Assembly (NCBI GenBank): GCA_030748415.1
Contig: JASMMA010000001.1
Span: forward strand, 62,001-126,000
Origin: Planctomycetota bacterium
Lineage (GTDB): Bacteria > Planctomycetota > UBA1135
Direction of reading: 5' to 3'
DNA: 64,000 bases
The position numbers were made by a program, and so were the translations under genes. Positions 11,973-15,045 of this stretch are shown here, piece after piece. The notes beneath the pieces are model-generated. The model was given only the letters and a program-made list of their open reading frames with translations, did no database searches and was not told where the DNA came from. Within the stretch, counting starts at the first letter, position 1, and each line of letters starts with the position of its first letter.

Positions 11973-13407
11973 TGTCTTCTGCCATTAAGGCTTCCACTGC
12001 CTTCGTGAGTTCTTCCCCACGAATTTTCTTGTATCGGATGACCCCCTTTCTATCCACTAGCATGGTGAATGGGATGGAATGCACAGCAAACTCTTGAGCT
12101 ATAGCAGCTTTCCAATAACCACCATCGTAAATCTGAGGCCAAGGCATTGCTTGTTCTTGAACCCAGTTTTTCAAAATATGAGCATCCATTCGAGTTGGAA
12201 GCCGCTTTGCTCCTTTTGCTTCTGCATCTTGAACATCCTTTTCGGTAACCAAACGGTCTAGAGATATTCCCAAAACTTCAAACCCCTGCGAGTTCCACTT
12301 TTCATAAGTTGAAACGACGAGGGGAATCTCTGCTCGACACGGGCCGCACCAAGTAGCCCAAAAATCTAACAACAAAACTTTTCCCCGGAACATTTCTGGA
12401 GTTAGTAAATTTCCATCCAAACCCTTTCCCTCGAAATGGGGGATAACTTTCCCAATTTGCATTCGGCGGAGGATGGGAATTTCCTTAAGCAAGCCTTCGG
12501 CGCGCTCAGCATTTCGGCCCTCTCCTTTGCTGGTGTCTTGGAGAACCTTCTCAGCTTCATCGAGCTGGTCCTGTTCGATTAGACCACGGACAAGGTCTAT
12601 AGCCAATCGAGAGGAATCTACATGCACTCCTTCAGGTTGAACGGTAGTCAGGGCAAGAGATTGAGCATAGGCGAACCGAAGAGATTTGAGGCCCTTTTCA
12701 GGTTCACCCAATATGCGAAGATCAATTTGGCCTGCGGATGTAAGCGCGCTAATCGAAGCCCAAGTCCCAGCCCAGTCCTTTGCGAATTGGGTCATTTTCT
12801 CATGCATAGAATTGAAATAAGTGGAACGACCGTCGGGGTTTTGTGGAGGGCGCTTGCCTAGGTTTTCACGAATTGAATGAAGAGCGGTGGCCGCCTCGAT
12901 GTCTCGAGGGCTAGCCTCTGGGGATTTTGCTGAGGCTTCTTGAGGTTTTGGAGTGACTTTGTTTTGCGGCCGTTCTGTCTGCAGTTTTTTCACATGCTCT
13001 ACATAAAGTTCTGGGCCACCTTTTCGATAGCCAGTCTTTCCGTAAACCTCACCGTCAGGGGTCATCAGAAGAATTGTTGGATAACCACGGATGGCATATT
13101 TCTTTTTAAGCTCTTGGTTCCGTTTCGGATTGGGTACCAATGCTTTAGCCGCCTCCTTTCGGGGATAGTCTAAGGCAACCAAAATGTAATCCTCTTGGAT
13201 GGGTTTGAGAAAAGCATCATGTTGAAAGACTTCATCGTGAAGTTTGATGCACCATCCGCACCAGTCGGAGCCCGTAAAGTCAACGAAAAGATCCTTGCCC
13301 TCTTTCTGGGCAAGCTGGGTGGCTTTGTCGAAGTCTGCCATCCAGTGAGAGTCTTGGGCAAAGGACGGAGTTGAAAAGAGGAAGGGAAGCAGGAGGAGGA
13401 GTCTCAT
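11965..13407 (-). CDS. secreted protein with two thioredoxin-fold domains
   Basis: 480 residues with a clear signal peptide (MRLLLLLPFLFSTPSFAQ). Domain 1 (~20-140) is a DsbD-gamma/thioredoxin_7 type module with CGWC at 50-53 and VDFTGSDW before it. A helical, TPR-like linker (~170-310) follows. Domain 2 (~320-475) is a TlpA/ResA-type module with FWATWCGPCRAEIP, CGPC near 353-356, and a cis-Pro segment IPFTML. Both active sites are intact, so the protein could relay disulfides in the periplasm. The 3' end overlaps gltX by 8 bases. Confidence 0.88.
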   Translation of the reverse strand: MRLLLLLPFLFSTPSFAQDSHWMADFDKATQLAQKEGKDLFVDFTGSDWCGWCIKLHDEVFQHDAFLKPIQEDYILVALDYPRKEAAKALVPNPKRNQELKKKYAIRGYPTILLMTPDGEVYGKTGYRKGGPELYVEHVKKLQTERPQNKVTPKPQEASAKSPEASPRDIEAATALHSIRENLGKRPPQNPDGRSTYFNSMHEKMTQFAKDWAGTWASISALTSAGQIDLRILGEPEKGLKSLRFAYAQSLALTTVQPEGVHVDSSRLAIDLVRGLIEQDQLDEAEKVLQDTSKGEGRNAERAEGLLKEIPILRRMQIGKVIPHFEGKGLDGNLLTPEMFRGKVLLLDFWATWCGPCRAEIPLVVSTYEKWNSQGFEVLGISLDRLVTEKDVQDAEAKGAKRLPTRMDAHILKNWVQEQAMPWPQIYDGGYWKAAIAQEFAVHSIPFTMLVDRKGVIRYKKIRGEELTKAVEALMAEDTK

Positions 13408-13477
13408 GGAAATCAGTCTAAGGGTTGGGATGAATGTTGCCTGGATGAAGATGCCGGGGGCCGCTAGAATCTCCCTC

Positions 13478-13495
13478 CCGCCAGGCTCCTGGCGG
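13478..13495. repeat. perfect 8-bp inverted repeat just upstream of tRNA-Met
   Basis: CCGCCAGG and CCTGGCGG are separated by two bases and end two bases before the first base of the tRNA. The hairpin would sit in the 5' leader of the tRNA precursor. A TAGAAT box at 13465-13470 could be the -10 element, though I see no well-spaced -35 box. It is one of several hairpins clustered around this tRNA. Confidence 0.6.
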
Positions 13496-13497
13496 AC

Positions 13498-13574
13498 GGC
13501 GGAGTAGCTCAGTTGGTTAGAGCAGCGGAATCATAATCCGCGTGTCGGGGGTTCGAATCCCTCCTCCGCTACCA
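13498..13574 (+). tRNA. tRNA-Met (anticodon CAT)
   Basis: The full cloverleaf can be folded by eye. The acceptor GGCGGAG pairs with CTCCGCT (one G-U), the D-arm is GCTC/GAGC, the anticodon stem GCGGA/TCCGC holds loop ATCATAA, the variable loop is GTGTC, the T-stem GGGGG/CCCTC holds loop TTCGAAT, and the discriminator is A with an encoded CCA. A CAT anticodon can also mark tRNA-Ile2 (lysidine-modified). The body resembles elongator tRNA-Met, which I prefer. Confidence 0.95.
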
Positions 13575-13581
13575 ATTCAAT

Positions 13582-13616
13582 GCGACCATTTCGCGCAAGC
13601 GCGATGGTCGCTTTTT
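13582..13616 (+). terminator. intrinsic terminator after tRNA-Met
   Basis: The stem GCGACCA/TGGTCGC is stacked on an inner stem TCGCGC/GCGCGA and followed by five T residues. It starts 7 bases after the tRNA CCA. The inner GCGCAAGC core recurs in the terminator-like hairpin at 13726-13756, and a related GCGCAACGAGCGC core lies after tRNA-Lys. Confidence 0.88.
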
Positions 13617-13644
13617 CATTGGCAGCTGGGATTCTTGCAGAACG

Positions 13645-13689
13645 GTGTGCGTCGCTTTGCTCCGCACGCCTTGAGGGCTTTGCCCTCAT
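13645..13689. repeat. hairpin cluster between the tRNA terminator and the second tRNA-tail repeat
   Basis: Two inverted repeats sit next to each other: GGTGTGCG/CGCACGCC (8 bp, one G-U pair) and TGAGGGC/GCCCTCA (7 bp, TTT loop). They end a few bases before the second copy of the tRNA 3' end. No convincing coding signal is present, although both strands are nominally open. Confidence 0.6.
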
Positions 13690-13694
13690 CAGCG

Positions 13695-13716
13695 GCGAAT
13701 CCCTGCTCCGCTACCA
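13695..13716 (+). repeat. second copy of the tRNA-Met 3' end (T-arm/acceptor/CCA)
   Basis: This 22-base stretch matches tRNA positions 13553-13574 at all but two positions: its first base and one internal C-to-G change. The D-arm, anticodon arm and 5' acceptor strand are missing, so it is not a functional tRNA. It lies 142 bases downstream of the genuine copy and has its own terminator-like hairpin. Confidence 0.85.
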
Positions 13717-13725
13717 AACAAAAGG

Positions 13726-13756
13726 GTCGGTCCGCGCAAGCACGACCGACTTTTTT
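13726..13756 (+). terminator. terminator-like hairpin after the second tRNA tail
   Basis: The stem GTCGGTC/GACCGAC (7 bp) encloses an 11-base region containing CGCGCAAGC and is followed by six T residues. The layout copies the terminator after the intact tRNA: same distance from CCA and a similar inner core, but different stem bases with pairing kept. Confidence 0.75.
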
Positions 13757-13785
13757 GTTTGGTGGCTCCGTCGGCCTTCGGTGTC

Positions 13786-13876
13786 TTGGGCGATGGCCAA
13801 GCCATGCGGGCTTCGCCCGCACCCCCGAGGGGGTGGCCGGACAGCTGCGCCGTCCGGCGCGCTTGCTTCGCAAGCG
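13786..13876. repeat. run of hairpins ending at the third tRNA tail
   Basis: Five inverted repeats follow in quick succession: CTTGG/CCAAG, GCGGGC/GCCCGC with a TTC loop, ACCCCC/GGGGGT, GCCGGAC/GTCCGGC, and CGCTTGC/GCAAGCG with a TTC loop. The last one abuts the third tRNA-tail copy. The tract looks richer in GC than the flanks. I see no protein-coding pattern. Confidence 0.65.
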
Positions 13877-13898
13877 TCGAATCCCCCCTTCGCTACCA
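13877..13898 (+). repeat. third copy of the tRNA-Met 3' end
   Basis: Twenty of 22 bases match tRNA positions 13553-13574, ending in CGCTACCA. It starts 182 bases after the second copy. No obvious terminator follows. The stretch from 13899 to 14000 holds no gene that I can recognise; it leads to the 3' end of the convergent beta-helix pseudogene. Confidence 0.8.
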
Positions 13899-14000
13899 CC
13901 AATCCGAAGCTGGCGTTAAAAAACTGGGATAGGCAGTCAATTCACTTTTGGTTCATCAAATATAGAGGGCCGTAGTGGGCTGTGATGGGGGAGGGTTTTC

Positions 14001-15045
14001 TTATTGAATTGTCATCGCCAATGGATTCAACATTCTGTCCGACCCTAAATCCACTCCATGAAACCAAATGGGTGTTCCGGAGAGATAGGAGGGTATGAGA
14101 TTGCTGAAGGTGCCCAATCCGTTTGCATCAGTGTTGAAGGGTCTTTGAAGGTAGGGGACAGAAACATATCCCAGTCCATAAGGAGTATTGATGGGACCTC
14201 CGCCGGCAAGTGACCACACAAGAAACACCGTGTGGTTGGGAGTGCAATTCGTGAATTCAACAGTGGCCATTTGGCCAGCAATGAGATTCATCACAGACAA
14301 ATTGGGCGAAGTTTGGTCGTAATAATAGGCGCCCATATCGGCAAGAGTGCCATCTGGGTCGAGAGGAGAGTTCGGGTCACCAGCATCGATGCAAGGGGAG
14401 TCGGATTGCAAATGAAGATTGCTATTTACAGGATCCACATAAAGAGGGTCGGCGTTGATGTTGCCTGTACCCGTTGGCCAGCCGCCCACAATCTTGCAGT
14501 AGTTCAGTGTAGGGGATGAAAGAACGGCGTAGCTTATTTCTGGGTCACTCGGCGAATGGTTTACCCAGAGAATGCAGTTGGTCAAGGTCGGGGAAGATTT
14601 ATAACAAATCACTCCGCCTCCATAGGTTGTAGCGATGTTGTGGGAAAAGGTGCAGTTGTCAATGGATGGGGAAGAGTTGTCGTAGCAACCCACTCCACCG
14701 CCACTCCCATTATTGATGGCCTTCCCATTCGTCACCGTAAATCCTTCAAACACAGTGTCGGAGCCCTCCCCCGCAATAAAGCAAACGACAGTGCCCGCTT
14801 GATTCCCATCAATGATTGTGGTCTTGGGGCCATTTTCACTTTTGAGCGTAATCGCCTTTCCCTTGAGAATGATGAGCTCAACATAAGTTCCATCTCTTAC
14901 GATGACCGTGTCTCCATTTGTGGACCCGTCAATGCCCGCCTAAATTGTGGCAAAATCATCTGGGACATACCATGTGGTCTGAGCAAAGCCCACAGAGGGG
15001 AAGAGCAGGAGGGCGCAGGGGAAGAGGAACTGTTTTATAAGCAAT
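14001..15045 (-). pseudogene. secreted right-handed beta-helix protein interrupted by an amber codon
   Basis: Read from a TTG at 15045, the frame gives a signal peptide (LLIKQFLFPCALLLFPSVGFAQ-like) and the start of a parallel beta-helix protein, TTWYVPDDFATI. It then meets TAG at 14942-14940, where related proteins usually have Gln (the TIQxGI motif). The same frame continues at once with AGIDGSTNGDTVIVRDGTY and runs uninterrupted to TAA at 14001. One C-to-T change would explain it. The downstream part has beta-helix rungs (SSPSIDNCTFSHN, SSPTLTNCIL), an ADPLYVDP..DSPCIDAGDP segment, and a C-terminal beta-sandwich-like domain. A separate product from GTG 14753 (250 aa) would lack a signal peptide. 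A sequencing error is possible. Confidence 0.8.

Follow-up and report, generated by a model that had tools for sequence, protein, structure and literature searches.

The region at positions 13478-13898 of the window, that is, of the whole 64,000-nucleotide stretch of Planctomycetota DNA analysed here, holds an array of two units of an RtT-type tRNA-tail element, a variant of the architecture known from RtT and the tyrT repeats that is not RtT by model. The array follows a tRNA-Met(CAT) gene with an encoded CCA (13498..13574, + strand; ARAGORN; Rfam tRNA 68 bits), whose last 22 nt (13553-13574, +) serve as the reference tail. Two copies of this tail stand downstream, at 13695..13716 and 13877..13898 (both +), each with two mismatches and the first homologous to the tRNA from the T-loop on; the start spacings from the tRNA tail to the first copy and from the first to the second are 142 and 182. 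A preliminary description of the region had reported these copies, and the re-check of the sequence agrees with it on their positions, mismatches and spacing. It had overlooked that both copies begin within the T-loop and that each terminator is followed by an antitail, an imperfect reverse complement of the host tRNA's own tail.

The order of parts in a unit is the CCA end, the H1 hairpin with its terminator, the antitail, the hairpin core and finally a new tail, which begins in the T-loop. The first unit opens with H1a, an intrinsic-terminator-like hairpin (GCGACCATTTCGCGCAAGCGCGATGGTCGC followed by T5; 13582..13616, +; DNA fold z=-4.5), and a hairpin core resembling it is also found behind other tRNAs. 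Antitail 1 (TTGGCAGCTGGGATTC; 13619..13634, +), placed by alignment to the tail, forms base pairs with tail copy 1 when either strand is folded to minimum energy; taken singly, it does not rise above shuffles (75/300). Core 1, made of the hairpins from antitail to tail copy (13635..13694, +), gives together with its arms (13618-13718) a fold z of -3.9 on the + strand. The second unit consists of H1b (GTCGGTCCGCGCAAGCACGACCGAC followed by T6; 13726..13756, +; fold z=-4.0), which is 75% identical to H1a over 24 nt (family D2), of the weaker antitail 2 (TGGTGGCTCCGTCGGCCTTCG; 13760..13780, +), aligned in the same way and not significant when taken singly, and of core 2 with its additional hairpins (13781..13876, +). 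Each of H1a and H1b, with its T-run, folds better than all 200 shuffles. The R1 search matched 13618-13716 (20.5 bits, E=2.7e-5 for 1 kb, unfiltered) and, in unit 2, 13806-13898 (18 bits); under strict filters R1 missed the window's own units, both of which were recovered by the unfiltered run on 1 kb. The region had been said to carry no convincing gene, in agreement with a best Pfam match over its frames of E=0.047, which falls short of the cut-off, and no recognisable gene or integrase gene was found in the units of 142 and 182 bp. The Rfam model Plastid-ycf2 (RF04354) matches, below its cut-off, the antisense strand of tRNA genes, both in the window (13499-13571, -) and at two other loci (L186, L187).

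The closest known family is that of the 178-bp repeats of E. coli tyrT/tyrV, Rfam RtT (RF00391). These repeats likewise stand behind a tRNA, end in a tRNA tail with CCA, hold hairpins between the tails and vary in copy number; the Rfam model spans antitail, core and tail, with antitail-tail pairing as its outer helix, and the tyrV repeats of E. coli show the same order of parts as the window units, antitail included. Such an outer helix, ending in CCA behind a tRNA, is present in the window, weakly so in unit 2. The differences lie in the core sequence, the host tRNAs and the phylum, and the units of the window and of other Planctomycetota often have an intrinsic terminator before the antitail. 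The RtT model (curated cut-off 45 bits) found no match in window positions 13300-14200 at E<=5 and none in the Planctomycetota loci tested at E<=0.5; because of this failure to match, the array is not a member of RtT by the model test, although the architecture is the same. The suggestion that the array could be something not described is thereby superseded, since the kind is already known from the E. coli tyrT repeats and Rfam RtT. RtT, itself little understood, has mainly been known from enterobacteria and related bacteria, where it counts as a by-product of the tRNA operons, and our search for literature on it found little.

The same architecture bears on the idea, raised at the outset as the alternative, that the region is the remains of decayed tandem tRNA genes. 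Tandem tails followed by terminators would be expected of such remains, and one genuine tRNA-Ser pseudogene does occur in a gammaproteobacterium (G421), but the units read have neither D-arm nor anticodon arm, their 5' part is an inverted tail and their cores are common to different tRNAs. In the window region, ARAGORN and Rfam detected tRNA-Met alone and no second tRNA, and whole tRNA genes were not seen at the positions of the second and third tails. We consider decay extremely improbable.

Tail copies (<=4 mismatches, within 420 nt downstream) were found downstream in 23/203 distinct tRNA contexts, a fraction that is not a prevalence because the contexts were partly picked where units had already been found, and in 0/203 either upstream or in reverse complement; the copies downstream of tRNAs are not due to chance. 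Comparison with relatives, which the preliminary description had proposed, showed the same kind of unit at other tRNAs, and in Planctomycetota units were read at nine tRNA species: elongator tRNA-Met, initiator tRNA-Met, a third tRNA-Met(CAT), Arg (CCT, CCG, ACG), Gly-CCC, Pro-TGG and Val-CAC. Within the window's own family, the loci read at the elongator tRNA-Met show copies in G000 and G007 alone; the underlying list also holds two initiator loci belonging to another family. The named-genome scan revealed units at the initiator tRNA-Met of Oscillospiraceae, Candidatus Yanofskybacteria (Patescibacteria) and Alphaproteobacteria, single cases each, and of a Mesorhizobium alhagi record; 22 of its 28 loci lie away from any tRNA and were judged by inspection to be chance matches. 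Weak R1 matches in other families also lie mostly away from tRNAs, the exceptions being G072 and G104, and a search of 151 genomes for the motif TTCTTTGGC...AGGT gave few useful matches. In Gammaproteobacteria, the RtT model matched 62/274 genomes at E<=0.01, 18 of them above the curated cut-off, and the units read follow Ser, Tyr and Gln tRNAs or the displaced ends of Arg and Lys tRNAs, each with its own tail. A further unit (L343) probably sits behind the displaced 3' end of a tmRNA, again with its own tail, to judge from the sequence; ARAGORN found no whole tmRNA at this locus. A solitary unit whose copy of the initiator tRNA tail comprises just the final bases was observed at L033 (G002:C22:4800-6800), and a reverse transcriptase match (G002:C22:4553-5119) lies about 0.5 kb from it.

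The number of units varies, as comparison between strains and relatives made clear: the tyrTV locus of E. coli has 4, 3, 2, 1 or 0 RtT (rows sampled from 5,411 records), and members of genus g4 have 1 or 2 units at the same tRNA. Three copies, the third decayed, stand behind the initiator tRNA of G072, and in 35/68 units the sequence following the CCA is repeated after the tail copy. In the sister genome G001, the orthologous tRNA-Met (L036, G001:C17) is interrupted by an N run (360 in the stretch), which makes the unit number there unreadable.

The arms of the units match the host tRNA. As single antitail tests are mostly not significant, each unit's antitail region was scored against its own and the other tails and the tails were then permuted among units; the observed sum of own-tail scores was reached in 2/20,000 permutations for 27 Planctomycetota units and in 0/20,000 for 35 gamma units. 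The own tail is the best of all tails in only 6 Planctomycetota and 3 gamma units, and the antitail signal is therefore collective. The separation of arms and core is seen in G004, whose tRNA-Val and tRNA-Met units have an identical final 48 nt before the tail (identity 1.00), whereas their antitails and tails differ, each being near its own tRNA. The cores follow the genome: mean core identity is 0.71 for the same genome and different tRNAs versus 0.66 for different genomes and the same tRNA in Planctomycetota (p=7e-5), and 0.72 versus 0.67 in the gamma units (p=0.007), these p-values being guides only because the pairs are not independent.

In one gammaproteobacterium, G421, the only genome from which core-only T-loop inserts are known, cores of about 80 bp lacking an antitail are found at GGTTCGA^AATCC in the T-loops of broken tRNA copies, namely a tRNA-Ser pseudogene, a displaced tRNA-Arg half and a displaced tRNA-Lys half. 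Core matches in G421 lie at seven places, of which C129 has no recognised tRNA nearby and C60 and C78 are unread, so that confinement of these cores to tRNAs is not proven. The tRNA-Ser pseudogene (L332, reverse complement about 1390-1780) holds one core in the D-loop and another in the T-loop, and an intact tRNA-Ser directly follows it.

The reading that we favour, tentatively and at a little under an even chance, is that of a short non-coding element lying in the T-loops of duplicated tRNA ends and spread largely by host recombination. The unit would be a duplicated tRNA 3' end, from T-loop to CCA and often with the next hairpin, with a hairpin core in its T-loop and, before the core, part of the same tail copied in inverted orientation. 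As each unit has a full T-loop-to-CCA end, the functional tRNA would stay intact. Recombination or slippage between the tails, which are direct repeats, would lengthen and shorten the arrays; within a genome, cores would move from one tRNA locus to another by way of the conserved T-arm ends (GGTTCGA ... AATCC), the arms remaining those of the host tRNA. Such a spread, by host recombination or template switching, would presumably follow this order of events, with a structure that may matter mainly as DNA. Against this reading, the antitails have conserved mismatch positions, such as one column where 15/27 units carry C instead of A, and these look like a recognised feature. A bolder formulation, in which bacteria-wide gene-free mobile DNA elements with a core of about 80 bp enter tRNA T-loops, rebuild the end and adopt the arms of the local tRNA, is conceivable and in our view rather unlikely.

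Whether the units act as DNA or as RNA is addressed by their terminators and base pairs. A structured RNA of the RtT kind, produced by read-through or from its own promoter, would fold by antitail-tail pairing and act as a small RNA or a cis element. The outer helix and the CCA end are shared with Rfam RtT, and the apical stems of the tRNA-Arg(ACG) units of G023, G017 and G041 covary by eye. Expression of RtT RNAs has been reported from E. coli and A. pleuropneumoniae, with Northern blots in the latter (PMC4986893), so that the main role may be that of an RNA; a covarying tandem-GA motif has also been reported for RtT in the literature. Against an RNA role, a terminator-like site lies between the tRNA and the antitail in 32/70 units, E. 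coli strains range from 0 to 4 copies, and gamma cores lack an excess of G-U pairs on the top strand (0.047/0.052 for top and bottom, no strand bias), compared with 0.078/0.044 in tRNAs. Counting against the favoured reading, G-U pairs are more frequent on the top strand in Planctomycetota cores (0.138/0.078), while the mean folding energy there slightly favours the bottom strand. We regard the RNA explanation as a possibility to be taken seriously, and a doubtful one.

The position of the junction raises the question of a dedicated enzyme. The T-loop is a usual crossover zone of tyrosine recombinases, and the units could be mini-insertions made by such an enzyme crossing over in the T-loop, in the manner of integrative elements or of integron cassettes with an attC-like folded site. 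The tail copies do begin in the T-loop, the arms form an imperfect inverted repeat with conserved mismatches, and an integrase gene lies 0.3 kb behind the initiator tRNA-Met unit of G004. In G017, however, where units follow tRNA-Arg(CCT) and tRNA-Arg(ACG) and an initiator unit has no tail copy, a generic PF00589 search detected only two tyrosine recombinases, presumably XerC and XerD. Units at L179, L111, L183 and L357 stand on tRNA 3' halves that have no 5' half and start near the anticodon arm; we read them as the far ends of ordinary islands, so that real integrases would seem to cut elsewhere, near the anticodon arm, and to carry the units along. In G023, a displaced 3' half of the elongator tRNA-Met lies 1.8 kb beyond that tRNA (L040), the mark of an insertion. 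The phage collection contained no unit match, and of two matches in viral contigs one is an array at a displaced tRNA-Lys end, which disfavours, as far as seen, a phage-borne element. The recombinase explanation thus appears quite improbable. Of the earlier proposal of very small insertions rebuilding the tRNA end, what stands is the small gene-free unit that recreates the sequence from T-loop to CCA; a dedicated integrase is not supported.

Among other known systems, integron attC sites and cassette arrays likewise have imperfect inverted arms flanking a variable hairpin region, occur in arrays and show conserved mismatches, but here the arms follow the host tRNA, cassette genes are absent and the generic PF00589 search in G017 gave no sign of a dedicated integrase. 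Compared by eye only with the attC boxes (RYYYAAC / GTTRRRY), the junction is GTTCGAA in the tRNA and either GTCGAAT or GGCGAAT in the copies, which differs from GTTRRRY. The tRNA-targeted integrative elements (tycheposons, islands) also rebuild the tRNA 3' end, whereas the units here measure about 110-200 bp and carry neither genes nor integrase. REP/BIME sequences are likewise short non-coding palindromes, and rtT-like sequences have been linked with BIMEs (PMC2965389), but our units are tied to tRNA tails and no Y1 transposase was found in G002, G004, G017 and G023, nor in G007 and G013. Neither PF01797 (Y1 transposase) nor PF00078 (reverse transcriptase) was detected in G004, G017 and G023, an absence that is provisional because these draft genomes are 87-88% complete (G017 87%). 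The two Y1 transposases of G000 lie away from its units.

In conclusion, the occurrence of the same architecture over several phyla places what seemed a local oddity behind a planctomycete tRNA-Met within a wide class of short repeats. It raises the general question by what means a short non-coding sequence can spread through tRNA genes and leave them unharmed, and whether its action is that of DNA or of RNA. With its 0 to 4 copies per strain, E. coli makes this question testable.
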